A program made the translations under genes and the position numbers. Shown here in pieces: positions 11,402 to 26,462 of a stretch of 28,282 nucleotides of DNA. Source of the DNA: a virus; the IMG/VR virus record IMGVR_UViG_3300007541_000143, positions 1 to 28,282 of that record. One strand, given 5' to 3'. The notes beneath the pieces were generated by a model. That model was given only the letters and a program-made list of their open reading frames with translations, searched no databases and was not told the origin of the DNA. The first letter of the stretch is position 1; every line of letters starts with the position of its first letter.

Positions 11402-12454
11402 TTGAAGACAGGATTTATCACTGATGATTTTAGCACTCTAGGGGGGTTAGCCTCGGTTGCGTATGGCAGTGTAGATGCCTTTAGAGAGGTTCAAAATCAA
11501 ATTATTAATTTCTCTCCGACTAGGATATTTGATTCCCAACTTCCTTCCGATATCTTTAGTAGTTTTTTAGGGTCGGAGGAGTATTTTTTTCAAGTTATCA
11601 TCAGTTCTCTTATTGAGGAATATGGTGGTGACGAAGATTTTGCCGATTACATCGATGAGGTATTGGGAGCGGATTGGCAAGAAAAAACTAAATCTTATCT
11701 TCTCAAGGATTTATTCAGCGAGATGAATTCATCCACTAAATATGGGAATAAATTAGAGGATTATTTATTTACAACTTTGGGATATTTATTTCCTGGTTAT
11801 CAAAAGATTGAGCAATTAACCTCTAGGGTGATTTCTAATATCCAATCCAATCCCTTCCTCGGAGAAGATATAAAACTCATCGCCTCAATCGCTGGTAATA
11901 ATCCACATATAAAACTAGACACCCCTCCTGCAAATACCACAATCGCTCTGAATCAAAACATAGAGTTAGATAAAGACTTTAGAGGTATTTCATTCGTTAC
12001 CGGGTATCTAACTCCTCAACAATATTACTCCGAGGTTGCGTACCCAGACTTCGATGGGCCGTTCTCGGTCCCAACTTCATTCAAAGACTCCATCTTGGAT
12101 GGGTATGTTGGTTATCCATCCGGTATCTCTATGGAGTCTGTATTCAATCCCACCGGAGCTGAGTCTATTAGGGACATTTCTACTGGCATTGCTTCAGTGC
12201 TTAGTGATTCTGATATTTGGAATGCTGCATCAGTCCTTGGGCAACTTGGGGATATTCCTGGTCTTGATCAAGGAGAACGGCGTATTTATGAAATTAGTCT
12301 CATTGGCCCAAGAGTTAATAATCTCTTAACATTTGACCCAGCAACAATGTCCAATGGTGATTACTTCGATACCAGTTCCCTGCCTAAAATCCTCAATGCA
12401 GATAAGGAAGATGGAGTTCCCATGTCTTCCCGTAACTTCTCCAATACATTCTAA
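11402..12454 (+). CDS. Unknown tail/baseplate operon protein, 350 aa, TTG start
   Basis: I do not recognise this protein. The frame is closed upstream by TAG at 11,390, and the first in-frame Met is around residue 108, so TTG at 11,402 is the most likely start. The protein has no signal peptide. The N-terminal half is helical and acidic (YGGDEDFADYIDEVLGADWQ near 75-95), and the C-terminal half has Asp/Ser/Pro-rich loops. It is the first gene of the plus-strand baseplate unit and its stop overlaps the ATG of the J-like gene (TAATG), so translation is coupled. Position suggests a baseplate or tail component, but no sequence motif confirms it. Confidence 0.75.
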   Translation: MKTGFITDDFSTLGGLASVAYGSVDAFREVQNQIINFSPTRIFDSQLPSDIFSSFLGSEEYFFQVIISSLIEEYGGDEDFADYIDEVLGADWQEKTKSYLLKDLFSEMNSSTKYGNKLEDYLFTTLGYLFPGYQKIEQLTSRVISNIQSNPFLGEDIKLIASIAGNNPHIKLDTPPANTTIALNQNIELDKDFRGISFVTGYLTPQQYYSEVAYPDFDGPFSVPTSFKDSILDGYVGYPSGISMESVFNPTGAESIRDISTGIASVLSDSDIWNAASVLGQLGDIPGLDQGERRIYEISLIGPRVNNLLTFDPATMSNGDYFDTSSLPKILNADKEDGVPMSSRNFSNTF

Positions 12455-13743
12455 TGTCAAACATCTACGGACCTATACTCCCCCTCCAATTAGATAGCCG
12501 TAATACCGCGGCATTAGTTCGTGCTATTCAGACTCGGATGAATCTGGAATCGGGAGGGGAGTTGAATGATTTTACTCCGGCTTCGCCATTGGCTGCAATT
12601 AGTGAAGGCCAGGCATTTGCTCAGGCAGAACTTCTCTATTACCTAAATAATCTCCCCGAGGCATTTAGCCTTCAATGGCTGAGACAACTTGGCATTCAGA
12701 GAAGGATCGGTGCTAAGGCATTAGTAGATGTCACATTTTACAAAGTACCTAGCTACAACCGCGTGGTTATCATCCCCCAAAGGACTAAGGTATTTGCTAA
12801 TAATGGACTCGAGTATGAACTGCTTGAGGAGGTCAGGATATTTGAAACAGAGGATTCTAAGACAGTGATCTGCCGCTCTAGTAAGTGGGGTTCGGTATAT
12901 AACGTCGGAGAAGGAGAAATTAATAAAATCGAGAGAGCATTTGTCGGTCTTGAGTTTTTAAGAAATAACGAAGCGGCGGCGGGTGGAAAGGATCTTGAGT
13001 CTGTAAACTCAATGAAACAGAGAGCATTTGAGGTCTTAAGTAGAAGAAATTTGACTACTGCTTTAGATTTTGAAAACGAAGTCATTACCCTCGCCCCAGA
13101 AACCTCACTGGTCAAGGTATTAACTTACGAAGAAAGATATCAACTCTCCTCGGCATTGTCTGGGAACATTGTTATTTGCATGGGTGATGAAAATGGTAAT
13201 TCTCTTTCGGAAACCACTCTGCAGTATGTTATCGAATCAATAAAAAATAGAGTGACCTTGGGCACAAATGTTTCTATACTTCCTCCAGAGATTGTTCCAA
13301 TAGACCTTGTCCTTGAGGTGTATTATGATCCGGCGGAGATTAGTGGTAATACCAATCTAAGATCAAATGAGGTCCTTCAGACATTACAGGAATACATCAA
13401 CCCATTAAATCTGTCACTGGGATCGGATCTATCCTACCAAGACGTATTAAAAAAGTTATACGAGTTTTCTTTTATAAAAACAGTTAATACTTTTGATATG
13501 AAACTCATGATCAGGGATTCAGGTAATGTAGAGGGTCTTTGTGCGGGGTTTAGTGGTGAAGAATCTGAGGCCTTGGGTAAATGTCTATATAACTACTTGG
13601 ATGTAATTAATGCGGATAATCAGGTGTTCTCCGCTCCTTCGGGGATCGTTTCATATAAATTATTTAATGCTCAAATTACTTTTACATCTATAAATGATTT
13701 TAGCCCGCTAACCTATACATATAACGATCTATATACACTATGA
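12454..13743 (+). CDS. Baseplate wedge protein, gpJ/gp6-like
   Basis: 429 aa with the order of motifs seen in baseplate J family wedge proteins (P2 gpJ, T4 gp6): an N-terminal helical region with AEGQ-like SEGQAFAQAELLYYLNNLPEAF, then LGIQRRIGAKALVDVTF, then VVIIPQRTKVFANNGLEYEL, the GSVYNVGEGEI strand, and GGKDLESVNSMKQRAFEVL followed by LTTALDFENEV. The C-terminal third (SILPPEIVPIDLVLEVYYDP) fits the family's trimerisation region, with INPLNLSLGSDLSYQDVLKKLYEF. The protein forms the ring of wedges around the hub in contractile tails. It overlaps its neighbours on both sides (TAATG at the start, ATGA at the end), indicating coupled translation with the gpI-like gene. Confidence 0.88.
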   Translation: MSNIYGPILPLQLDSRNTAALVRAIQTRMNLESGGELNDFTPASPLAAISEGQAFAQAELLYYLNNLPEAFSLQWLRQLGIQRRIGAKALVDVTFYKVPSYNRVVIIPQRTKVFANNGLEYELLEEVRIFETEDSKTVICRSSKWGSVYNVGEGEINKIERAFVGLEFLRNNEAAAGGKDLESVNSMKQRAFEVLSRRNLTTALDFENEVITLAPETSLVKVLTYEERYQLSSALSGNIVICMGDENGNSLSETTLQYVIESIKNRVTLGTNVSILPPEIVPIDLVLEVYYDPAEISGNTNLRSNEVLQTLQEYINPLNLSLGSDLSYQDVLKKLYEFSFIKTVNTFDMKLMIRDSGNVEGLCAGFSGEESEALGKCLYNYLDVINADNQVFSAPSGIVSYKLFNAQITFTSINDFSPLTYTYNDLYTL

Positions 13744-16007
13744 ACCTTACAACCTGGGATAGTATAAAGTCCAAAAGAAGAAACCCCTCTCTTTCTTCAG
13801 GTCATATTATCCTGGAGTTTGATAGGACTAAGAAGCAAAAAATTTTTGCCCATAAACTAGGTAGGATTACTTTTGAGTCAAAAGATATCAACTCTCCTCG
13901 CAATGAGGTAATTCAGATTCAGAAGGGCAACCTTGATCTCAACGGCTTTATATACAAAAATATCGGGCATACCTACTCAGATTCCGAGGTAGTTTCTGAA
14001 GATCCTTCTCTAGGTGGATTTCCAATTTACGCCCATGGCCATCCGCTTGGTGGGACAGAGCATGGTGGGATGGAAAGTTGTTCCAGAGAAGGACTTACCT
14101 GCAAGGATGGAGAAGGGACGGATGATCTTTGTAACCCTGGAAAGTGTCTGATCGGTAAGTTATCTCATGTAAGAAATAAGAAATGGAAGTATGAGTCGAT
14201 GAATACCTATGACTCCGGCCTACCACTCATCTATTATAAAAATGGTACAGAGGAGATCTCCCTCCACACAGTCTTACGTGGGAAGGCAGTAGGGTTTAAT
14301 AACTCCGAAGCAGTTACACTAAGCATCACATCCCTTGCCTCTAAGTATACAAAGATTTATCTTCCACCAAAGTATTATTTCTCTGAGGATTTTATTGATA
14401 CTGCCATAAGAGTCATTGATGAGAGACTAACATCCGTTAACAATCCCCCAAAGCTAAGTCTTATTGGCCTGGAAAATAGAAAAGATAGATTTATCTCGTC
14501 ATTCATCATCTTTGTATATCCTAAGAAACCTGAAGGAGGCCTTAACAATATCCTATATGAAGACGGAGTGAGGGAGGAGGTTAAGAATCAGGCTTTATCT
14601 CTGTTCTCCACTCTCCCCCAGAAGTGGTTTGAACAGTGCTCCGCCATTATTGAAGATGAGTGGTTATATAGAGAAGCGAGAATACATACTAACTTTAGTT
14701 TTATTTCTACCATCTATGATAGAGTAAAAGATCTTTTCGGAAAGATTATTCAGGTAACTGAAAGTTCCCTCAAGAGAGGGGTACTTGACTACCAAAAGAC
14801 ATCTATCTCGCGCCCGGTATACTCCCGCCTACCTGGTATCTCAGAGGCATATCGTACTGATCCGCTATTCTCTGAGATAGAATCTCCTGCTCAATGGGTG
14901 ACGAGTGGAGCGGATGATTTTCTTTCTAAGAAAAAGGATCAGATTGGATCTTTTTATAGAGACTATCTAGACCCAGAAACCTGCTCACCATTAACTCTGG
15001 ATTGGTTAGCCCAGCATGTAGGACTTACAGGTCCTTTATGGGATACAAGGTGGGATAGAAGAATCAAGATAACTCTTATAAAAAATTCCTTTGGATGGTA
15101 TGATAGGGAATTAAAAACTGACGTCCCTGGGGTTGGTAAAGTTTTAACTCCAAAAGGCGAAGTGTTATCAAAGTTTCCATTTGAGTCTTCTCGAGTATGG
15201 GTAGAAGAATTAGATTCAAACAAGTGGGATTCCGTGGATGATTGGCAGACAGTACTTCAGTGGGGAGGTGATGTTGGTAATACAACAAAAATAAAATATG
15301 ATGAAATAGAGGATATTAGAATCAATTTTATTGATACAGAAAAGAAAAATAAAGCTATTATTTCTAATAAAGTATTTAAATATGTCTCCCATCCCACCGA
15401 AGATGTAGTAAATCTTTCAGAAACAGATACTCCAAAAGTTGATAAGAAAAACTGGAATGGACTTATTGAGTCCAAAGGAAGTTTACTCTCTAGTATGTTT
15501 CTTTCTTCAGTATTTAATTTAAAATCTCATACCCCCCTAGAGTTAGAGATAGTAAACTCTAAAAATAATGTCTTAAGGCCAAGAAGTGGATTAAGAGATG
15601 TGGAAATAAATTCCCCTATTCTCGTGCCATATAAAACAGATCTACTTCAAATTGGTGAAGTTCAAGATTTAAAAATTAGAAATTATCCAAATCAACTAAT
15701 AGCTGATATTAGTAAAGTAACTACGCCTGAAGATTCTAAAAATGTTTTCTTTAGAGTTCCTTTTTACTATAATAGAAACGGAAAATCTTGGAACAGAGTA
15801 AAGTATATTACAGATAATTGGCTACCAGATAATTTAAATAAAAGAGTTCAATACGCGTATTTATCCGCTGATTTATGGATGGTTGGTGACGGATTTTTTG
15901 AACCAAAAATAGTACAAGTGGCCGTAACCGATATAAATTATCTCGCTCTTGAAAATAGTAGTGGCTATCTTGTAACCGAAGAAGGCAATCCGATAGTCTA
16001 TGAATGA
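13740..16007 (+). CDS. Tail protein with gpI-like segment, 755 aa
   Basis: The segment from D411 (DPETCSPLTLDWLAQHVGL, then W..RWDRRIKITLIKNSF, to about 450) matches the P2 gpI tail-protein pattern, which normally follows gpJ, as here. gpI connects wedge and fibres in P2-like tails. The protein is much longer than P2 gpI (about 175 aa), with about 400 extra residues before and 300 after the segment, so it resembles a gp7-scale fusion. A His/Cys cluster at 99-136 (H99, H101, H108, C114, C121, C131, C136) could bind metal or form disulfides. Base composition turns AT-rich from about 15,260 onward, like the next two genes. It starts in an ATGA overlap with the J-like gene and is followed by a 49-base gap holding a late promoter. 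Confidence 0.75.
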   Translation: MNLTTWDSIKSKRRNPSLSSGHIILEFDRTKKQKIFAHKLGRITFESKDINSPRNEVIQIQKGNLDLNGFIYKNIGHTYSDSEVVSEDPSLGGFPIYAHGHPLGGTEHGGMESCSREGLTCKDGEGTDDLCNPGKCLIGKLSHVRNKKWKYESMNTYDSGLPLIYYKNGTEEISLHTVLRGKAVGFNNSEAVTLSITSLASKYTKIYLPPKYYFSEDFIDTAIRVIDERLTSVNNPPKLSLIGLENRKDRFISSFIIFVYPKKPEGGLNNILYEDGVREEVKNQALSLFSTLPQKWFEQCSAIIEDEWLYREARIHTNFSFISTIYDRVKDLFGKIIQVTESSLKRGVLDYQKTSISRPVYSRLPGISEAYRTDPLFSEIESPAQWVTSGADDFLSKKKDQIGSFYRDYLDPETCSPLTLDWLAQHVGLTGPLWDTRWDRRIKITLIKNSFGWYDRELKTDVPGVGKVLTPKGEVLSKFPFESSRVWVEELDSNKWDSVDDWQTVLQWGGDVGNTTKIKYDEIEDIRINFIDTEKKNKAIISNKVFKYVSHPTEDVVNLSETDTPKVDKKNWNGLIESKGSLLSSMFLSSVFNLKSHTPLELEIVNSKNNVLRPRSGLRDVEINSPILVPYKTDLLQIGEVQDLKIRNYPNQLIADISKVTTPEDSKNVFFRVPFYYNRNGKSWNRVKYITDNWLPDNLNKRVQYAYLSADLWMVGDGFFEPKIVQVAVTDINYLALENSSGYLVTEEGNPIVYE

Positions 16008-16056: not shown

Positions 16057-18483
16057 ATGGAAAATTCTTATCCAATTAAAATATCTGAATTAAACTCATT
16101 AGAAGTTTTAAAAGATAATGATCTATTACTTGTTGTAGATAAAGGCTCGGTGGGTTTAAACGCAGGGACTACAAAAAACTTTACCGCAGATAAAATAAAA
16201 AATTATGTTTTTTCTAATACTCCAATAAATTTATTATCAGATGTAGATACCTCTACCTCAATCCCCCAACCAGGGCAGGTATTAAATTGGAACGGTAATT
16301 CTTGGATTCCAGGGACTCCCCCAGGTATTACTGATGGTAATAAAGGGCATATACTGGTTACAAATAATGGTAGTACTTGGTTAATAAATGATTCGGTGAT
16401 ATCTCTCTCTGGAGGAAGTTCCAGTTACAACGATCCATTATCTATAAATACGGACGGTATTAAAACAGAAAAAGAAGCTGCTATTTTTTTAAGTAATACT
16501 ACACTCGGTCCCTCTATACACGAAATAAGAAATTTGGTTGAGATCGGAAGCAAAAGAAAGTGGATGCTTGACCAGATATACGGATCGTATGATGGTTCAA
16601 CGTATAGTGAATGGAATGCAACTGGGGATTCACTCGAGTTAAAAACCGGTTGGTTTGGTAAAGTTGCACTCCATTTTAAAATGCCGGATGACTATGAGTT
16701 TTCAACTCTTAATGTCACTTATCCCGGTAATTTTAATACAAGAGCCTCTCTCTTATCAGCATTTATAAGAAATGATCCCCCAGTCGGAGATATCGGATCA
16801 TTAGATCCAAATAGTAATTCTAGGAAAGATTCTAGAAAATCATTACTATGTAAGATTGTATGGATACTTAATAAATTAATTCCAGTTTCAGCCCCTGGAG
16901 GTGGTTTCCCAGGCAACGAGGCGGATACTTATGCAATTGTGAATTGGCACGGGGTTTTAGCAAGACATGCATTTGGTAATTATGCAGACCTTTTAGAAGA
17001 AGTGGCATATAGTTTTAGCATGGCGCTAATGTTAACACATTTAAGAAATCAGAGATCCGATGAAACAGGAAGGCAACCCGATGAGAACTTTGGCCGTGAA
17101 ATTATGCAATTATTTAGTATAGGGCTATATGAATTGAATGATGATGGAACTTATAAATTAGATAATAATGGAGATAAAATAGAGACTTATGACCAATATG
17201 ACATCTTAGAAGCTTCAAAAGTATTCACGGGGCTCACGAGATGGGATAGGCCCGATGCTGAATACTATAATATATCTTATGATGCCACAATGAGAGGTGG
17301 AGGGGTCGGACTCGAAGGAATATCAAGAACTTCTTTCCTTACTGATAATCAGATAGTATATGGAATAGCTAAACCGGCTATCCGTATTAAAAAAGGAAAA
17401 ACTTATCGTATATATTCGACTGGAAATACGGACTTTACCAAATTTGGTTCTAGTGGTAACACGACCGGATTAGAGTTTATTGCTAATAAAGATGGTGATT
17501 ATAGCTCAGGAAGCGGGGAAGTAGAGGAAAAAAGAATTTATCCATTAGGTGTAATACCAAGGCTAAAGCATTTTCTTCCTTGGTACGAAGACGGAGAAAA
17601 AAGATTTCCCAACGTAGGTATAGTAATTCCAGAAGGAACTGACCCTGAAACAAATATACGTTTAATGGTTGAAGGACTGACTAATCATCCAAATTGTGCT
17701 CCGAATATCTGCAAAAATTTAATTAAATTAGCGGTCACATCCAATCCTTCAAAGGGTTATGTTTCTAGAGTTACTTCAGTATTTAGGAACAATGGAAAGG
17801 GAGTTACTGGGGATATGAGCGCCGTATGGATAGCAATATTTACTGATCCAGAGGCTAATTTAGACGTTAATTCATCAGAAACTAAAGGTAGAGTTATTGA
17901 CGGATTTGAAGCTTTTTGTAAATACACAAGAGCATTGGGAGGATCAAGTAGATACACTGGAGATGATGATAGTGCAAAAATTTACATAGATGGAGTTTTA
18001 CAAAATCCCGCTGAAGGATACTTAGCTGATAATGAATCTGCAAGATTAGGATCTTGGCCATATAGCAGCCCTTCGGTATTTAGTTATTATGGACTTGACT
18101 ATAGCATCACTCCAGCTTTAGACTGGGGGATTTTATTACCTGAGATAGGATCTTTACCAGCGAATATATTAATGAATGCTATAAGAGCCCTTGAAGACAT
18201 GATTAATAGCGGGGACCCCATAGATTGGAGGGCAGGGCCATCGGAAACTGGTAGAGTCTATACCCCCTCATTCCAGTCTATTATAGGAAACTTAGAGGAT
18301 CTGGATAATGTTATAAATATACTTAATCTTATTCTATGTAGAGGAACTTTAAGTAACCAAAAAATAGAAATACTAAAAAATATCATGGAGAGTATGCCAA
18401 GTTCATCTCAAGATGACTTAGATAACAGAGTTTGCTTGGCACTCCAATTAATTATCAGATCTCCAGAATTTTGGGTACAATAA
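16057..18483 (+). CDS. DUF1800 protein fused to a tail-fibre-type N-terminus, 808 aa
   Basis: Residues about 136-808 match the DUF1800 pattern: EAAIFLSNTTLGPSIHEI, AFGNYADLLEEV (305-316), PDENFGREIMQLFSIGLYELNDDG (341-364), TYDQYDILEASKVFTG, TNHPNCAPNICKNLIKLAVTSNPSKGYV, VFRNNGKGVTGDMSAVWIAIFTDPEA, SPSVFSYYG, and RVCLALQLIIRSPEFWVQ at the end. The biochemical role of DUF1800 is unknown; in bacteria it is usually paired with DUF1501, as it is here. Residues 1-130 are unlike DUF1800 and resemble phage fibre N-termini (KISELNSLEVLKDNDLLLVVD, then LLSDVDTSTSIPQPGQVLNWNG and WIPG). About 440-490 carries an inserted KGKTYRIYSTGNTDFTKFG module of the kind found in phage structural proteins. No signal peptide is present. 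A late promoter precedes it and DUF1501 follows after 1 base. Probably a virion component. Confidence 0.88.
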   Translation: MENSYPIKISELNSLEVLKDNDLLLVVDKGSVGLNAGTTKNFTADKIKNYVFSNTPINLLSDVDTSTSIPQPGQVLNWNGNSWIPGTPPGITDGNKGHILVTNNGSTWLINDSVISLSGGSSSYNDPLSINTDGIKTEKEAAIFLSNTTLGPSIHEIRNLVEIGSKRKWMLDQIYGSYDGSTYSEWNATGDSLELKTGWFGKVALHFKMPDDYEFSTLNVTYPGNFNTRASLLSAFIRNDPPVGDIGSLDPNSNSRKDSRKSLLCKIVWILNKLIPVSAPGGGFPGNEADTYAIVNWHGVLARHAFGNYADLLEEVAYSFSMALMLTHLRNQRSDETGRQPDENFGREIMQLFSIGLYELNDDGTYKLDNNGDKIETYDQYDILEASKVFTGLTRWDRPDAEYYNISYDATMRGGGVGLEGISRTSFLTDNQIVYGIAKPAIRIKKGKTYRIYSTGNTDFTKFGSSGNTTGLEFIANKDGDYSSGSGEVEEKRIYPLGVIPRLKHFLPWYEDGEKRFPNVGIVIPEGTDPETNIRLMVEGLTNHPNCAPNICKNLIKLAVTSNPSKGYVSRVTSVFRNNGKGVTGDMSAVWIAIFTDPEANLDVNSSETKGRVIDGFEAFCKYTRALGGSSRYTGDDDSAKIYIDGVLQNPAEGYLADNESARLGSWPYSSPSVFSYYGLDYSITPALDWGILLPEIGSLPANILMNAIRALEDMINSGDPIDWRAGPSETGRVYTPSFQSIIGNLEDLDNVINILNLILCRGTLSNQKIEILKNIMESMPSSSQDDLDNRVCLALQLIIRSPEFWVQ

Positions 18484-18484
18484 C

Positions 18485-19978
18485 ATGTCAAATCAACTAC
18501 CAAGTGATTATATCTCAGATAATACCAGAACGTTATTATCTCAAGCCTCTTTAGAGAGCCCAGATGATTACAAATGTCTAGTTTGTATCTTTTTATTAGG
18601 GGCTGCGGACTCACATAACATGGTGGTTCCTTATGGTTCTACCAACCCAAATAGATCTCTTTATGACCTAGCCCGGGCATCTGGAGTAAGAATAGAAAAT
18701 GAAGAACTAGAGAACTCTTTACTCTCTACTACTCCGCCATGGGGGCTCCATCCCCAACTGCCCGGATTTTATAATGAATGGCAAAATGGAAATCTTGCCA
18801 TAATCAGAGATGTGGGGGTTTTAAATAGACCAACCACTAAACAGCAATATGTAGATAATACTAACGGGTTATATAGACCAGATCGTCTTTTCGCCCATAA
18901 TATTCAACAGTTAACTTGGCAAACCGCTCTTCCATTTAGGGAGGCAAAAGTAACTGGATGGTTTGGTAGAACATCAAATCTTATAGATGGCTTTTTCAAT
19001 TCTGATTCTAGAATTGGCTCAGGAGTACTTTCAGTAAGTGGGGCTAATCCTCAGACTTTTGCTTATTCTCCAAAAGTTAGCGTCATGTATCCGGCGCTTA
19101 CCATCTCCTCTGGTAGTAATAGGGGGGCAAATAATCTAATGTATATCGCTGGTAGGGATAATTTTTATCATAAAGATACACCGGAAATGTCACCAGTAGG
19201 ATATCCGATTCTCCCCCCAAATAAAATATATAACGCGTTTTCCAAAATTTTTAGAAATTCAGTTATCTCCCAGAATGATGTAAATACTAATGGTGCCGGA
19301 TGGGATGCTAATGATGGGGGTATTGGGACTCAACTAGAAGCTATATTTACTAACGCATATCAAGAAATTATTAATACGACGGTAATAGTACCCAATCCAG
19401 TGGATCCTAATTCCCCTTATACTAGAAGTCTTCCGAACTCTTATTTTCTTTTTAGAGTAAAAGATATTGCAAAAATTATCTACTCTAGAGGCAACTTAGA
19501 TGGAGTCGGATTTAATCAAAGAAGGCAAATGATCTACTCCGGAGTAGGGGGATGGGATAATCATAATAATCTAAGATATCACCATGATGGTCTTTTGAGA
19601 TCTTTGGATATTTGTATTAAAGCCTTGAGAGATGCAACGATATTAATGGGATTAGGTGATAAGGTTACCATTTTTACGGAGAGTGAATTTGCTAGAACTT
19701 TTAGATCAAATGGTACCTACGGAACGGATCATGCTTGGTCGGGTCATAGTTTTGTATTAGGAGGGGCAGTTAATGGAGGGATGTATGGTCCAGAACCAGA
19801 TTATACTTTAGGGGGGAGTAAGGACATTTCTAATTTAGGTAGATTTATACCAAATTATTCCATAGAGCAATACTATGGAACTTTATTAAAATGGTTTGAT
19901 ATTCCAGAAGGACTTATCCCATTAGTACTTCCTTCTCTACCTCTATTTTCTCCGACGGATATCGGATTCATGAATTAA
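18485..19978 (+). CDS. DUF1501 protein without export signal, 497 aa
   Basis: DUF1501 belongs to the alkaline phosphatase/sulfatase-like fold group, with no established reaction. Motifs in order: FLLGAADSHNMVVPYG (36-51, family form FLRGGADGLN), GLHPQL (87-92), GWFGR (158-162), GGWDNH (355-360), VTIFTESEFARTF (394-406), GTDHAWSGHSFVLGG (413-427) and a C-terminal P.YSIEQYYGTLLKWF. Conserved Asp/His/Glu residues (D42, D358, H360, E399, D415, H416) could form a metal site, so activity may be kept. Many bacterial members have a twin-arginine or other export signal; this one begins MSNQLPSDYISDN and has none, fitting a virion or cytoplasmic protein. It follows DUF1800 by 1 base and precedes the hub gene by 14, with AT-rich composition. 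Confidence 0.9.
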   Translation: MSNQLPSDYISDNTRTLLSQASLESPDDYKCLVCIFLLGAADSHNMVVPYGSTNPNRSLYDLARASGVRIENEELENSLLSTTPPWGLHPQLPGFYNEWQNGNLAIIRDVGVLNRPTTKQQYVDNTNGLYRPDRLFAHNIQQLTWQTALPFREAKVTGWFGRTSNLIDGFFNSDSRIGSGVLSVSGANPQTFAYSPKVSVMYPALTISSGSNRGANNLMYIAGRDNFYHKDTPEMSPVGYPILPPNKIYNAFSKIFRNSVISQNDVNTNGAGWDANDGGIGTQLEAIFTNAYQEIINTTVIVPNPVDPNSPYTRSLPNSYFLFRVKDIAKIIYSRGNLDGVGFNQRRQMIYSGVGGWDNHNNLRYHHDGLLRSLDICIKALRDATILMGLGDKVTIFTESEFARTFRSNGTYGTDHAWSGHSFVLGGAVNGGMYGPEPDYTLGGSKDISNLGRFIPNYSIEQYYGTLLKWFDIPEGLIPLVLPSLPLFSPTDIGFMN

Positions 19979-19992
19979 AAAGTTAATCACCC

Positions 19993-22926
19993 ATGGGATT
20001 TTTTGACGAGCTCCAAAGTTTAAAAGAACTAACTGAACGTAACTCTGAAACTCTCGGGGGGCCGTTTGGGGATCCTTTTAATGAAATAGGAACAATTATT
20101 TCTGTATCTGATCCTAAAAGACTCGGGAGAGTGAAAGCCCTTTATTCTGGAATGACATCGGATTGGATGTATGTCCAGGGTAGTCATAAAGGCCAACTAA
20201 GTTCACAATATATAGGCTCCCCCTGTCTCATTACCAAGGCTGGTGGGAATACTAACGATGCCTTTGTCAGTCAGATTTTTAACAAAGATCCCAGGGGTAC
20301 TGGAGTAGGGACCCCGATCCAACTCACAGTCCTCGGCGAGCAGATGGAAGCGGGGAATGCTGCCTCTGACCCCGGTATGAGATGCAACGAGGATAATGCA
20401 GGGCGGATTTACCTACTCGAGAATGAAATAAACCAAGATGTAGTCATCTGCCTCCGTCGCAATAACACCCAAGAGGGCGGGGATCCTGTCTATGCCTGGA
20501 AGTCCCTTACCCATGGCAAGATGGTGGAGAAGGGGTTTGATCCTGGAGTTGTAGAGTCTCCTACAACTACCAATCTCTCTAAGGCATCTGGAATGCCCAA
20601 ATGTTCCCAGGCGCTTGAGGGAGAGATCCGCGAGTTTACCGAGGATAGAAAGTTCCGGTCGACGATGCTGATGTGCCGGAGGGATGAAAATGGGAACTTT
20701 TCATGGCTGCCTGTATCCGCTCCGCCATTAGTATTCCGTACTACTCTCCCTTCTTGCACTGAGAAGAACCACGGGATGGAGGCCGTTATCGACCCTGGTG
20801 ATAACTCGGAGCTGGCTATTTGCCTCCGTTATCAAGGCCAGATGAAGTGGGTCCATCCCGGTACTCGGAGGCCTGTGCAGTTCTATGGCGGCGAGAAGCC
20901 AATGTCAAGGAAAGATTTTCTTGAATCAAAAAAAGCAATAGCAGCATTGACTCAGTATGCCTCGCCATCTTCCCAAGATTTTGTGGGCAAGGCGGGAAAG
21001 GCGGTTTTAGAAGCAGCCGGGAAGGCAGTGGCTCCTATTGCATCTGATCCTGCTCTTAAGGCAGCAATGATGGCAGCAAACGCACTCCCTGGTAAATTTG
21101 ACGGGGCGGATATGCTCAGTAATCTCGCTAAGATTACCATTGCCAACAACTCCAATCAGTCTATTGATGCCATCACTTCCCAAATTGTCTCAGCCATCAA
21201 CCGTGGTGGAGTCATCGATGATGATTTGGCAGCCATCCTACGCACCGCAGGTGGGGCGGGGGATGTCTTAGCCCGTGGAATCCAAAACAACACTCTAGAC
21301 CAAGCCCTCCAGCTCATTGGCAAAAACTCCCTTAACCAGGCATTTAACGGTCTGCCATCTCAGGTGGCGGGTGTATACTCGGCATATATGGCGGGTGGAG
21401 CACTCGGGGCTATTGACAGTGCCGCTATGCTCGGCCTATCCCAACTCCCTCCAGAGGTGGCGCAATTCGTCTCCCCGGTGTGGGATCTTGGTAAAGATAT
21501 CCTTAATGGCCAGCCCCTTTCCATCAATAATATCATTGGAAGTGCAGTGGGAGCCTTGGACCTATCCCTCCCCGATTCCATCAACCAGATCATTTCTACC
21601 GCTGGTGGGATTGGAGGATTAGATAGTATCCTCTCTGGGGATATTATCAACAAGTTATCTGGAGGAGATTTTGGTGAGATAGCACAAATGGCTGCCAACT
21701 TTGCCAATTTGCCTGGCGTTCCTAATCTTGGTGGGTTACAAGGTGTACCTCAGTTGGCTACATCAGCGCTCCAGCTGGTCGGTTTGGGTGGACAGTTTAC
21801 ATCGTTCCTTGGTCCTGCAGGACTAGGACTGAGTGCCTTCTCGGCACTGACGGGCATTAACCCAGTGGCATCAATTCTTGGTGGAATACCGGGTCTTGGT
21901 GGGTTATTTGGTGGAGGAGGGCTAGATTGTCCTTGTGATCCTAAATGCCGTAAGACGGAACATGGCGTCGACTCCGATGGGAATAGACTCCTAGATCCTT
22001 GTGGGAATGTTTTAAAGAGCGGGCATAGTTCCTACTCACCAAGCGGCGACCCAACAAAAAACAATGATAACCCTATCACTGACTTTCTCCCCACTGAGAT
22101 AGGCTCGGAGTTGTGTGTTAAGAATCCATTTGACTTGACCAAGATCCTCCAAGCAGTGAGCAGATTAAGAGATCTTGCTGATAGAATGGAAGGAGCTAAG
22201 AATGCTGACTTTCCTGAGTTTTTCTCAGAACTTGTTTACTCGTTAGAAGCGGTTGAAAAGGCCCTTAAACAAGCTGATAACAATATCTCTAAAGTTGAGT
22301 CTATTGAACGGAAACTTCTAGACGCTCAATATCGTACCATGAGAAAGTTCTTCTCATCATCATTCTCCTATTTCCCCTTGGCAATGAAGGACATGACAGA
22401 ACATGCCGAGGCGATCTTGGATCTCTATCGTTATGTGAGGAGACTCGATGGGGCAAAGGATGGTCCTAGGATCGGTGTAATACCAACCCCGGCAATCACG
22501 CTTACAAAGAAAAATATTAAGCAAATTCCTAAACTTAGTAGAAAATCTCAAAAAGAAGCCACCACTACCATCAATAAAGCGCTCAAACCCGCTCATAAAG
22601 AATGGAAACAACTCCGCCCTGGTGAAGGTCTACTAGAGATGGCAGACGTTGTCCTCGGTCTCTTCAACCCAGATGTGCCAATCAACTTCGATGGGTGTAA
22701 GACTAAGAATGACAAAGACAAAGTCCTCAAAGACTCATTGGCATCAAAGATCAACTCTCCAGAGCCTCCAGAACCCTCGTCTCTACTAGGAAATTCTTTA
22801 CCCACTAAATACTTCGACCTCCCATCCTCGGACCTATCCCCATCCTCCCAGCAAGAAATCTCATCCATCCTAGACCAAATTAACTATGAACAAGGCAGAA
22901 GTAAAGAAGGAAAGGCAGACTGTTAA
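19993..22926 (+). CDS. Baseplate hub protein, gp5/VgrG OB-fold type, with Cys modules, 977 aa
   Basis: The N-terminus (about 30-100) fits the gp5/VgrG OB domain: IGTIISVSDPKRLGRVKALY, DWMYVQG, GSPCLITKAGGNTNDAFVSQIFN. These proteins sit at the base of the tail tube and carry the spike. Next come three related Cys-pair modules (C131/C153, C204/C228, C255/C277) of pattern C, 20-odd residues, C(L/R)R, then W. A long Ala/Gly/Leu-rich hydrophobic region follows (about 330-640), ending in LGGLFGGGG, then a Cys cluster LDCPCDPKCRK near 645-655 and a helical C-terminal region rich in Lys and Glu. No lysozyme domain is visible, unlike T4 gp5; a separate lysozyme-like gene lies at 27,745. It overlaps terL by 41 bases. 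Confidence 0.78.
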   Translation: MGFFDELQSLKELTERNSETLGGPFGDPFNEIGTIISVSDPKRLGRVKALYSGMTSDWMYVQGSHKGQLSSQYIGSPCLITKAGGNTNDAFVSQIFNKDPRGTGVGTPIQLTVLGEQMEAGNAASDPGMRCNEDNAGRIYLLENEINQDVVICLRRNNTQEGGDPVYAWKSLTHGKMVEKGFDPGVVESPTTTNLSKASGMPKCSQALEGEIREFTEDRKFRSTMLMCRRDENGNFSWLPVSAPPLVFRTTLPSCTEKNHGMEAVIDPGDNSELAICLRYQGQMKWVHPGTRRPVQFYGGEKPMSRKDFLESKKAIAALTQYASPSSQDFVGKAGKAVLEAAGKAVAPIASDPALKAAMMAANALPGKFDGADMLSNLAKITIANNSNQSIDAITSQIVSAINRGGVIDDDLAAILRTAGGAGDVLARGIQNNTLDQALQLIGKNSLNQAFNGLPSQVAGVYSAYMAGGALGAIDSAAMLGLSQLPPEVAQFVSPVWDLGKDILNGQPLSINNIIGSAVGALDLSLPDSINQIISTAGGIGGLDSILSGDIINKLSGGDFGEIAQMAANFANLPGVPNLGGLQGVPQLATSALQLVGLGGQFTSFLGPAGLGLSAFSALTGINPVASILGGIPGLGGLFGGGGLDCPCDPKCRKTEHGVDSDGNRLLDPCGNVLKSGHSSYSPSGDPTKNNDNPITDFLPTEIGSELCVKNPFDLTKILQAVSRLRDLADRMEGAKNADFPEFFSELVYSLEAVEKALKQADNNISKVESIERKLLDAQYRTMRKFFSSSFSYFPLAMKDMTEHAEAILDLYRYVRRLDGAKDGPRIGVIPTPAITLTKKNIKQIPKLSRKSQKEATTTINKALKPAHKEWKQLRPGEGLLEMADVVLGLFNPDVPINFDGCKTKNDKDKVLKDSLASKINSPEPPEPSSLLGNSLPTKYFDLPSSDLSPSSQQEISSILDQINYEQGRSKEGKADC

Positions 22927-24505
22927 AGAAATGGAGGCAAACATCGCCTCTCTTTCCCCGCCTGATAAGCAGGAACTTCTTAGACTGAAGTGCCGGACAG
23001 ACTTTTTAACATATGCTCGGTTTATAACCTCTGAGGTACCCATTGCTGGCAAGTTCCAACCATTTAAAGTCCATGAGGTGATTGGTCATTTCCTTCAGAA
23101 GATTGGGGATGGGGAGAAGGGATATAAGCAAAGCGCAATCTCCCTCCCTCCTCGTACAGGAAAGTCACTACTTATCTCCAAGGTATTCCCATCTTGGCAA
23201 ATGGGCCGGAGCCCAACAGCTCAATTCATCATGAGTTCTTATGCTCTCCAGCTTACAAATGAAAACTCGAGGGCGGTGATTGAATATATCTCCCATGAGA
23301 GCTGGAAATGGCTCTTCCCTGAATGCGAGATAGACAAAGATAAGTGCAACCTAAGTGCCATCCGTAATGGCAATGGTGGACTGATTAAGATTGCATCTGC
23401 CGGTGGTAACGTTACCGGTTTTGGTTTTGGTGTTATTAGTGATGAAGAGTTGCCAGGCGTTGGGATCCTAGACGACCTTTTAGCTGATGGTAACTCATTG
23501 ACTGTTATGGAGAGTACATTTGCCTGGACACAGGCACAGTTCCTAACTCGTGGCCTTCCCAACCATGCAATCATTTCCATGGGTACTAGGTTCCATGTCG
23601 ATGATGTGATTGGCCGGTTGCTCAAGGCTGACCCTGACGGCTGGAAAGAACTTAATGTCCCCGCTCTATGCATCGATGAGGAGAACGATGTGTTGGGGAG
23701 GAAGTTAGGACAGTCTCATTGGCCAGAGTTTTTTCCAGTTGAGAACCTTGAAGCGATTAAAAAATCCATCGGGGATAAGGACTTTAACTCCTTGTATCAA
23801 GGCCGACCTGCTGGTGAGCAGGGCGCTATCTTCAAGGAGCACTGGTTTGAGTACCATGGGAAGAATAAGACTAAATACTCTTATATCTACGCCACAATTG
23901 ATCCGGCTTATAAAGCTGAAAGAACAAATGATTATACTGCAATATGTATCTGGGGATTTGATAAACGGGAAAATAAGCTCCATTTAATCCATTATATTCT
24001 TGAAAGAATGGAATTTCCAGAAATGGAAAAACTTCTTCCGCAATTAATTAAACAATGGAAAATTAGGGCTGTATATATTGAGGGAAGAGCAGCCGGGATG
24101 CCGCTTATTCAAACTCTACGTAGAACGACTAATATTTCAATTAAAGAATTAGTCCCCAATAAGGATAAAGTGCTTAGGGCTAATGCCGTTGCTCCTTTAG
24201 TTGAAACAGGAATCTTATCACTCTATGAAAACCTTCCGAACCTTCAAGAACGACTTTCAGAATTGACTTCGTTTCCGTTTATTAAACATGATGATTGGGT
24301 GGATTCAGTGGTATATGGTTTAACAGTATATAGAGATGAACTAATGGGCGGTGGAACTGTACATGGGGGAAATCGTGGACAATTACCAGTTCTTGTACAT
24401 GACCCCTTTTATAGAGGAGGAAGTAGAAGAACAAGTAGTGAAATTGGAAAAATAGGAGTTAAGAACTCATCTAGTTCTTACCATTCATCAACCAGATACT
24501 TATGA
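22886..24505 (+). CDS. terL: Terminase large subunit (packaging ATPase/nuclease), 539 aa
   Basis: The motor that pumps DNA into the prohead and cuts it. The ATPase domain has Walker A LPPRTGKS (87-94), a Walker B-type GILDDLL (193-199) and a SMGTRFH coupling motif (231-237). The RNase H-like nuclease domain has ATIDPAYK with D339, YIEGRAAG with E399 and HDDWVDSV with D469, D470 and D473. The order and spacing fit the COG5362-type family rather than T4 gp17. I use the ATG at 22,886, overlapping the hub gene by 41 bases; an ATG at 22,931, just after the hub stop, is an alternative. A Ser/Arg-rich tail (about 511-539) ends in a 6-base convergent overlap with homing endonuclease 2. G+C falls at the start of the nuclease domain. 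No small terminase is seen nearby. Confidence 0.92.
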   Translation: MNKAEVKKERQTVKEMEANIASLSPPDKQELLRLKCRTDFLTYARFITSEVPIAGKFQPFKVHEVIGHFLQKIGDGEKGYKQSAISLPPRTGKSLLISKVFPSWQMGRSPTAQFIMSSYALQLTNENSRAVIEYISHESWKWLFPECEIDKDKCNLSAIRNGNGGLIKIASAGGNVTGFGFGVISDEELPGVGILDDLLADGNSLTVMESTFAWTQAQFLTRGLPNHAIISMGTRFHVDDVIGRLLKADPDGWKELNVPALCIDEENDVLGRKLGQSHWPEFFPVENLEAIKKSIGDKDFNSLYQGRPAGEQGAIFKEHWFEYHGKNKTKYSYIYATIDPAYKAERTNDYTAICIWGFDKRENKLHLIHYILERMEFPEMEKLLPQLIKQWKIRAVYIEGRAAGMPLIQTLRRTTNISIKELVPNKDKVLRANAVAPLVETGILSLYENLPNLQERLSELTSFPFIKHDDWVDSVVYGLTVYRDELMGGGTVHGGNRGQLPVLVHDPFYRGGSRRTSSEIGKIGVKNSSSSYHSSTRYL

Positions 24506-25276
24506 TTTTTTAATAGTTCTACCATGTCTATATCCTATTGGGCACTCAAAAGCACGAATATTATCAACTCCATTGGTGAACCATTTGCTCCCATAAGCAG
24601 GATTATTTTTACCCAGCCTCCCTTCACTTATTTTTCTTTTAGTTTCTACAGAATGTTTTCTCCCTGAATTAGCCATTCTTATTTTTTCCTTTGTTTCTTG
24701 AGATTGTTTCCTATTAAATCCGATCTCTCTAAGTTTTTGCTTAGTTTTTTCAGTATGTTTCTTTCCTTTCATCGGAGAACCAGTTTTACTTCTACCCGGT
24801 TTAAATCCATCTGGACAATAAAAACTTCTTACATCGTCAAAACCATTGGTAAACCACTTTTTTCCTCTTGTTATTTCACCCATCTCTGTTCTAGCACTAG
24901 GGTTATTAAGATAATAGTCTCTTATAGCTTTTTTCTTTTTGCTTTTAGTCTCCTCTGAGTCTCTAGCCCCCGCCCTACTAAATCCAGATATTAATTGTTT
25001 TGACTTATTTGCGAAATACGGATTTTTATCAACATTAAATTTTTCATGTAAATAAACTTCATGCTCATATGCTTCCAATCTATTTTGAAAAGTTTTTAAT
25101 ACTTTCTTATATTTGGGTTTAAACGTTTTATCTTTAAAGGAACCCATGTATTTGTAGTCTTTTTCTATGGAAATATTACATCCACGAGAACCTATATAAA
25201 CTCTACTACCGGGAATTATTGGCCACCCTTCCTCCCAAACTATATAAGTATAATTATATTTAGTATTCTTTTCCAT
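24500..25276 (-). CDS. GIY-YIG homing endonuclease 2
   Basis: 258 aa from the ATG at 25,276; the frame also allows a TTG at 25,306, less likely. GIY-YIG nuclease domain: YTYIVW (9-14), SRVYIGSRG (24-32), EAYEHEVYLHEKF with metal-binding-type E71 or E73, and NPYFAN (85-90). The middle holds repeated NUMOD3-like motifs (MKGKKHTEKTKQKL, SQETKEKIRMA, GRKHSVETKRKIS). Two WFTNG motifs (141-145, 232-236) are each followed by F.CP.G(F/Y)..GR. The same WxxNG arrangement occurs in endonuclease 1, so the two are related, though they differ strongly. It is convergent with terL, overlapping its last 6 bases, and is AT-rich and Lys-rich. A likely target is the terL 3' region or the junction to the thioredoxin cassette. 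Confidence 0.9.
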   Translation of the reverse strand: MEKNTKYNYTYIVWEEGWPIIPGSRVYIGSRGCNISIEKDYKYMGSFKDKTFKPKYKKVLKTFQNRLEAYEHEVYLHEKFNVDKNPYFANKSKQLISGFSRAGARDSEETKSKKKKAIRDYYLNNPSARTEMGEITRGKKWFTNGFDDVRSFYCPDGFKPGRSKTGSPMKGKKHTEKTKQKLREIGFNRKQSQETKEKIRMANSGRKHSVETKRKISEGRLGKNNPAYGSKWFTNGVDNIRAFECPIGYRHGRTIKKS

Positions 25277-25326
25277 ATAAACCAAACTATATGAACCTTT
25301 AAACAAAAATGTCTAAAGATATTGTA

Positions 25327-25371: not shown

Positions 25372-25689
25372 ATGTCAGATCAACAACAATTTAAAAATAG
25401 AGTTGTTTTCTTTCACCAACCTGGATGCGCTGCGTGTAACGCAATGAAGCCAGTCTGGGCGGAAGCAGCAAATGAACTCTCAGAGGAGTATCCTCATTAT
25501 GCCATCGGATTTGGTGAGTGGGATGTGACCACCGATGACTGGGCATTTTGTGACCAGATTGAGTGTGATGGGACACCTAACTTCGCTGTGTTTGGCGAAG
25601 AAGCAAACCTACTCGGATTGAATACAGACGGGATTTTGGCTAAGTCCCAACTCAAAGATTTTATTATCGGAGCCATAGAGAAAGCATGA
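25372..25689 (+). CDS. Thioredoxin-like protein, 105 aa
   Basis: A compact thioredoxin fold, close to the family's usual 105-110 residues. Active site PGCAACNAMKP with C19 and C22 (CAAC; classic thioredoxin is CGPC), and GTPNF with the cis-Pro P69. Two further cysteines (C60, C65) flank the region before the cis-Pro, unusual for thioredoxin. In a phage with its own RNR the natural role is electron donor to ribonucleotide reductase; glutaredoxin-like or regulatory roles remain possible because the CAAC sequence differs from both classics. It has its own extended -10 promoter, and its stop overlaps the start of the sigma factor gene (ATGA), so the two are co-translated. Confidence 0.85.
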   Translation: MSDQQQFKNRVVFFHQPGCAACNAMKPVWAEAANELSEEYPHYAIGFGEWDVTTDDWAFCDQIECDGTPNFAVFGEEANLLGLNTDGILAKSQLKDFIIGAIEKA

Positions 25690-26462
25690 GTATGGAACCC
25701 GAAAAGAAGCAGCGCCGTAGAAGGCAGTCTGAGCGCGATGAGCAAATTATATCACAAATGTGGAAGGCTTCTCAGGTTGCCAGAAAAATTTCATCGTTTA
25801 CAGGGCTGCCATATGAAGAGCTGCGTGATGCAGCCCTTGAGTATATTGTAAAGATCTACGACTCTTGGGATCAGAGTAAAGGTGCCAACTTCTCCACCTG
25901 GGTGAATAGGTGTCTTCAGTTTCATATGCTGAACTATCTGCGAGACAACTCCAGATTAGTTAAGATTCCCCGCTCTTATTCCGATCTCTATCTCAAGATC
26001 CGTAAGTATACCACTACCGACCCAGACATCTCTGATGAGCAGATTGCAGAAAAGATTCAAGTCTCTGTAAAAAAAGTCCGAGCAGTTCGCCAAGCTTTCG
26101 CTATGAGTTTCTCTCCGGTTACCGAATATTGCAACATCATCGAACCCGAATATGAGTCAGAAATGACCATGGGGGATTTTATGCTCTCTCATCGCGACCT
26201 TCTCCATAAGATCACTGATCTCGATCCTGCCGATGAGACTTTTCTCATGGACTATCTGGTTAAGAAGAGATCAGTCTCCACCCTAGTCCGCAAAAACCCA
26301 CATTTAAAAAATGCGGAAGATATCAAGAAATACTCCGAGCAACTTATTGAATTTATTTTATGCGACGCATCATATCCATCCAAGGTAACGAGTACACGAA
26401 AGGAGGCTTCGAAAAGAAATGGACAGAAGTCGTCAACGGAACAGAATGCAACTACTTCGTGA
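25686..26462 (+). CDS. Sigma-70 family factor, gp55-like (phage late transcription)
   Basis: 258 aa. Residues about 43-88 match sigma region 2: YEELRDAALEYIVKIYDSWDQSKGANFSTWVNRCLQFHMLNYL, where the first part binds RNA polymerase and the second part reads and melts the -10. RLVKIPRS and a following helix-turn-helix (DPDISDEQIAEKIQVSVKKVRAV, about 112-134) match region 3. No convincing region 4, the -35 reader, is seen, so recognition should depend on a -10-like element alone, as for T4 gp55, which reads TATAAATA with coactivators. T4 gp55 is 185 aa, so this is longer. The N-terminus is strongly basic (KKQRRRRQ). The start is in an ATGA overlap with thioredoxin, and the last 103 bases overlap the next gene in another frame. 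Confidence 0.83.
   Translation: MSMEPEKKQRRRRQSERDEQIISQMWKASQVARKISSFTGLPYEELRDAALEYIVKIYDSWDQSKGANFSTWVNRCLQFHMLNYLRDNSRLVKIPRSYSDLYLKIRKYTTTDPDISDEQIAEKIQVSVKKVRAVRQAFAMSFSPVTEYCNIIEPEYESEMTMGDFMLSHRDLLHKITDLDPADETFLMDYLVKKRSVSTLVRKNPHLKNAEDIKKYSEQLIEFILCDASYPSKVTSTRKEASKRNGQKSSTEQNATTS

Follow-up and report, generated by a model that had tools for sequence, protein, structure and literature searches.

The stretch analyzed here, referred to as the window, is the IMG/VR virus record IMGVR_UViG_3300007541_000143 with its 28,282 bases, and it carries a DUF1800 gene and a DUF1501 gene side by side within an operon of the contractile-tail type. The open reading frame (ORF) of the DUF1800 protein covers 16057–18483 (808 aa), and that of the DUF1501 protein covers 18485–19978 (+, 497 aa), with a gap of 1 nt. 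The DUF1800 protein matched PF08811 (E 5e-39, 135 bits against a cut-off of 26.1), and the DUF1501 protein matched PF07394 (E 1.5e-20, 74 bits against 27). The ORFs and the Pfam matches confirmed the adjacency of the two genes that had been described in a first-pass annotation of this DNA. Upstream of the pair lie a Baseplate J-like protein (baseplate wedge; 12454–13743, +), which matched PF04865 Baseplate_J (E 1.7e-14) and phrog_6 (E 8.5e-31) and was 43% identical to an S-TIM5 virion structural protein, and a gpI-like (Tail_P2_I) protein (13740–16007, +), presumed to be the fibre-docking baseplate protein, which matched PF09684 (E 2.2e-5) and phrog_48 and was 36% identical to the virion structural protein gp102 of S-TIM5. 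Downstream, a conserved 977-aa protein (19993–22926, +) is 67–89% alike in close relatives and about 40–50% in distant ones, and its gene overlaps that of the terminase large subunit (TerL; 22886–24505; phrog_38, 2e-95). The J-like, gpI-like and terL labels of the first-pass annotation were borne out by Pfam and PHROG. Its label of "hub" for the 977-aa protein was not, and the Pfam and PHROG searches yielded no family match for this protein (best phrog_6142, E 0.2).

TerL was 67–68% identical to that of the cyanophages S-TIM5, S-TIM54, S-TIM61 and S-TIM66, and the baseplate J and gpI-like proteins were 42–43% and 36% identical, respectively, to proteins from S-TIM5-group phages. Because all three proteins matched S-TIM phages, the sequence comparison indicates that the virus is a relative of S-TIM5 (Aurunvirus), and its host, going by these relatives, is probably cyanobacterial. 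S-TIM5 has been described as a myovirus without the structural module common to cyanophages and T4-like viruses (PMC4928673). A second assembly of the window virus (L003/L005/L146) showed an identical gene order with 99.7–100% identity across both junctions of the pair, so the insertion was not an assembly chimera. Promoter and terminator scans gave chance-level results only.

We compared 49 loci of the S-TIM5-like group, some of them copies of one virus, in which the gpI-like gene was followed by a readable gene. The slot between the gpI-like and 977-aa genes was empty in 32 of the 49, where the 977-aa gene or its homologue directly followed the gpI-like gene, and was filled by an extra gene in 17. 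S-TIM5 has gp103 there, L143 has a 909-aa and a 702-aa gene, the window has the DUF1800-DUF1501 pair, and further loci have other fibres. Only the slot genes of S-TIM5 (gp103) and S-TIM54 (UYE97296) are annotated as virion structural proteins in their records; gp103 carries a lectin-like LamG domain. Compared in this way, the sequences indicate that the slot is a place where fibres are swapped. In L136, the nearest relative as judged by baseplate J (97%), nothing occupies the slot; the metagenome number of L136 (3300022198) is also that of the second copy of the window virus.

The gpI-like protein of the window ends in a C-terminal tail of about 35 residues (15900–16004, +), a putative docking peptide for the slot fibre, which was found in 17/17 loci having a slot gene and in 0/32 lacking one. 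Measured past the conserved GDxFF motif, the gpI-like protein ended after 4–16 residues if the slot was empty and after 33–66 if it was filled, at 49/49 loci. A tree built from 43 different baseplate J sequences showed 11 changes in the gpI tail and 11 in the slot gene, and 8/8 independent pairs agreed (sign test, p 0.008). These patterns indicate that the gpI tail and the slot gene behave as one unit, by contact or by joint transfer. In the first-pass annotation, relatives lacking the pair with no change in the tail had been named as the observation that would speak against a tail role. This objection failed, since the empty-slot relatives also lacked the gpI C-terminal tail. The recurrence that it had looked for between the gpI-like and "hub" genes was found for the slot with its fibre head and docking tail; the pair itself was not present in the slot of other relatives.

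The DUF1800 protein begins with a fibre head of about 58 aa (residues 1–58; 16057–16230, +), a candidate virion anchor. The consensus of the slot-fibre head was roughly KKISEL...ADxDLLLxVDxSDTSSSxxGTTKK. A hidden Markov model profile of this head, built without the window, G002 (the second phage with the pair) and L173, found L173, the DUF1800 protein of the window (E 1.3e-10) and that of G002 (E 7e-4); no other tested protein of the window or G002 scored below E 3.9. In addition, residues 24–107 matched phrog_677, a gp9-type baseplate wedge/tail fibre connector (E 1.6e-5). The head is followed by a linker (residues 59–131; 16231–16449, +) with the fibre-type motif LSDVDTST..GQVLNWNGNSWIPG, which gave tblastn matches to a cyanophage gp9 and a Methylophilales phage tail fibre and was 59% alike over 34 aa to the fibre of L143.

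The mainly helical DUF1800 core (16450–18480, +) was recognized from PF08811, from 73% identity to the core of the T4-like phage G002 and from the AlphaFold 2 model, which has many low-confidence parts. The family motif of the (E)NFGRE type was kept, with P341, E343, N344, R347 and E348 conserved. Since a fibre head and a fibre-like linker precede a bacterial-type core, the DUF1800 protein, as far as its sequence tells, is a chimera of the two. Within the core, a phage-specific insert of about 90 aa (residues 409–500; 17281–17556, +) was present in both phages and mostly missing from 81 bacterial DUF1800 rows. It matched phrog_36252 weakly (E 0.002), had no tblastn match in phages, and its motif occurred in no other fetched locus. 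PDB profile searches yielded no convincing homologue, and a fold search of the DUF1800 model was empty; DUF1800 had no relative in the PDB. A match of DUF1800 to PDB 8au1 "tail sheath" (E 0.0014) was rejected as short (37 residues) and probably due to chance.

For the DUF1501 protein, the AlphaFold model had a predicted local distance difference test score of 71.5 and a predicted template modeling (TM) score of 0.78. In Foldseek, all ten PDB matches at E ≤ 1e-3 were sulfatases, of carbohydrate and other types, and MCR-type phosphoethanolamine transferases ranked lower. The model thus supports a fold of the alkaline phosphatase/sulfatase superfamily, a call made at the superfamily level only because the Foldseek TM-scores were low (0.2–0.37). 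The putative metal ligands D42 (18608–18610, +), D358-x-H360 (19556–19564, +) and D415-H416 (19727–19732, +) were each conserved in 40/40 bacterial relatives. Residue 137 (18893–18895, +), which by the order of secondary structure elements in the model probably sits at the place of the sulfatase nucleophile, is occupied by Ser in 39/40 of the bacterial relatives, and the two phages have Ala there.

The pair was also found in a second phage lineage. G002 (37.6 kb) is a T4-like cyanophage with gp25, gp6, a gp7-like giant, gp8 and other structural genes, in the order gp25, gp6, gp7-like, 658 aa, gp8, 2714 aa, 1300-aa fibre-like, LamG, DUF1800 and DUF1501. Its gp8 was closest to those of Synechococcus phages Sf-FR1 and S-WAM2, in whose clusters the region corresponding to the G002 pair holds tail fibre genes. 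The G002 DUF1800 protein was 73% identical to that of the window over residues 132–808, and the DUF1501 gene, whose start is present, was 71% alike and cut by the contig end. The N-termini of the two DUF1800 proteins were only about 31% alike over 51 residues, whereas the cores, including the insert 409–500, were shared, suggesting a transfer of the tip between contractile tails of unrelated phages, with fusion to the heads present locally. The core and the DUF1501 protein showed strong purifying selection, with nonsynonymous against synonymous proportions (pN and pS) of 0.18–0.19 and 0.73 and a rate ratio (dN/dS) of about 0.08, which is approximate because dS was saturated.

In a tree, the DUF1800 core of the phages grouped on a long branch with proteobacterial DUF1800 proteins. 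At the bacterial loci found, DUF1800 was followed by DUF1501, the order also seen in the window and G002. In the bacterial examples, DUF1501 had a twin-arginine translocation (Tat)-like signal and some of the DUF1800 proteins started like a lipoprotein; inspection of the N-termini by eye revealed no visible export signal in either phage protein. A published account places the bacterial pair next to chitin synthase genes, notes that DUF1501 carries a Tat signal and gives the function as unknown (PMC5122149). The bacterial row closest to the phage DUF1800, L105, is separated from it by long branches and resembles an ordinary exported bacterial pair; it also has Ala at the nucleophile-like position. 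A genome scan with phage-specific motifs found nothing, and a scan with a looser alignment found bacterial pairs.

Other DUF1501 genes in viral records were considered. The GenBank entry MT837425.1 (L046), labelled "Bacteriophage sp.", was the only "phage" record with both families; it carries a DUF1800-Tat DUF1501 pair and a pyruvate kinase-like gene and was rejected as an actinobacterial chromosomal contig. The DUF1501 genes of IMG/VR records L006–L020 were set aside as another, stand-alone type with no DUF1800 in the records and a Tat-like signal in the copies read. Among IMG/VR contigs, L011/L018 (206 kb) and L014/L016 (221 kb) each have two stand-alone DUF1501 genes and no DUF1800, with a Tat-like signal in the copy read; their viral status is unconfirmed because there was no Terminase_6C match. 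The best viral fold match was A0A6J5M742 in BFVD, a 489-aa DUF1501 protein of an uncultured Caudovirales phage (E 1.2e-17, TM 0.54), which is possibly a third virion-type member and is 19% identical to the window protein.

Taken as a whole, these results are best explained by the pair being a host-recognition cassette of the virion tail, a reading that we consider likely. Its narrower part, that the pair is a tail appendage, is very probable on the comparisons made here. The fibre-type head, the swappable slot, the co-occurrence with the gpI tail at all loci and the same arrangement in an unrelated phage lend good support, at the sequence level, to the proposal of the first-pass annotation that the pair was recruited as a virion tail part. 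In the mechanism that we propose, the DUF1800 protein would attach by its head and linker to the C-terminal tail of the gpI-like protein and hold its partner DUF1501 at the fibre tip, where the anion/metal site of DUF1501 would bind, and possibly hydrolyse, a host-surface polymer bearing sulfate or phosphate groups. We infer the presence of the pair in the virion, the DUF1800-DUF1501 complex, the docking contact and the polymer target. Contact of DUF1501 with the host surface appears reasonably probable, and hydrolysis by DUF1501 is doubtful. From binding of an anionic host-surface polymer by DUF1501, it would follow that the pair stands in for the lectin-like or other tip of the fibres in relatives' slots. 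Several observations weigh against this proposal. G002 shows weak similarity in the head, the gpI tail adjoins the slot gene, so that joint transfer without touching is an alternative to direct contact, the Foldseek TM-scores are low, and the Ser-to-Ala change at position 137 disfavours standard catalysis. Furthermore, the pair is rare; within the sensitivity of the motif-based scans, IMG/VR yielded two phage lineages that carry it.

What DUF1501 does at the tail may be read differently. As a virion-borne enzyme at the same tail position, an active sulfatase- or phosphatase-like DUF1501 would strip groups from the cyanobacterial exopolysaccharide or envelope in the manner of a depolymerase-type spike. 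This is a tentative possibility, favoured by its fold neighbours (carbohydrate sulfatases and phosphoethanolamine transferases), the retention of D42, D358, H360, D415 and H416 and the purifying selection, but the near-invariant Ser is replaced in both phages, and no biochemical activity has been described for any DUF1501 member in the literature searched. Accordingly, of the tail enzyme suggested in the first-pass annotation, the alkaline-phosphatase-like fold and the putative metal ligands stand, and enzymatic function was not established. Because of the Ala at position 137 in both phages, we weighed binding above catalysis. Loss of the nucleophile-like Ser would also suit a purely structural adhesin, a dead-enzyme receptor-binding tip without catalysis, as would the fibres that occupy the slot elsewhere, some with lectin-like LamG domains. 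The putative metal ligands, however, are all kept, which would be needless for a dead fold, and we give this version somewhat less than an even chance.

Two further explanations place the pair outside the tail. Host-derived cargo, meaning moron or auxiliary metabolic genes that landed in a tail operon by chance and whose products are made in the infected cell and do not enter the particle, would agree with the bacterial ancestry of the core, the lower GC content of the pair relative to the downstream 977-aa gene and the close relatives without the pair. It is nevertheless very unlikely, since a fibre head is fused in frame to DUF1800, no export signal is visible, the slot gene co-occurs with the gpI tail, and the pair has the same kind of position in an unrelated phage. 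An assembly chimera or misbinned bacterial DNA, suggested by the unusual family content and nothing more, was refuted by the second assembly, the phage head on the core and the second phage with the pair.

Elsewhere in the window, two NUMOD3 homing-endonuclease genes were observed (1499–2263 and 24500–25306), the latter of which sits between terL and a thioredoxin-like gene and is missing there in L136. In some relatives only (L145, L151–L153, L168 and L197), an ORF of 280–284 aa lies between the 977-aa gene and terL; it had no match to the query set and is possibly another homing endonuclease. A sigma factor (25686–26462) and the thioredoxin-like gene (25372–25689) are kept downstream of terL across the group; the corresponding place in S-TIM5 is taken by a sigma factor and a gene of similar size.

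Returning to the host-recognition cassette, exchange of tail-fibre tips is already known, and we found no report in the literature searched of a DUF1800-DUF1501 pair as a tip or of a two-protein tip from a bacterial surface system. More speculatively, the bacterial pair could be a complex that binds or processes surface polymers, captured once by cyanophages, fused to a fibre anchor and passed among contractile-tail lineages that are not related to each other, where it would serve as a two-protein device for receptor binding that acts on anionic cyanobacterial surface polymers. For a pair that is widespread in bacteria, an export-independent form anchored on the virion would offer a clean system in which to find out what the pair binds. 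The slot, the head and the gpI tail would likewise provide a simple rule for where these cyanophages swap host-recognition modules.

In phage P2, where gpI and gpH mediate tail-fibre docking, the gpI-like (Tail_P2_I) gene lies directly upstream of the fibre gene. The window has the same arrangement, and by analogy its gpI-like protein may carry the fibre, but the virus lineage is different and docking in the window is proposed from co-occurrence alone. Like enzymatic tail spikes and depolymerases, the pair would present a tail-borne, enzyme-like fold to surface polymers; theirs is a beta-helix lyase or hydrolase, whereas DUF1501 has an alkaline-phosphatase superfamily fold with the nucleophile-like Ser replaced. 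Bacterial pairs, such as those of Pigmentiphaga and Polaromonas, share the gene order, the family motifs and the putative metal ligands at about 30% identity, and the phage proteins differ from them in having no visible export signal, an added fibre head and the insert of about 90 aa. The slot fibres of Aurunvirus (S-TIM5 gp103 and S-TIM54 UYE97296) agree with the pair in locus position, N-terminal head and gpI C-terminal tail, but their tip is a LamG-type or other fibre domain instead of DUF1800, with no DUF1501 gene.

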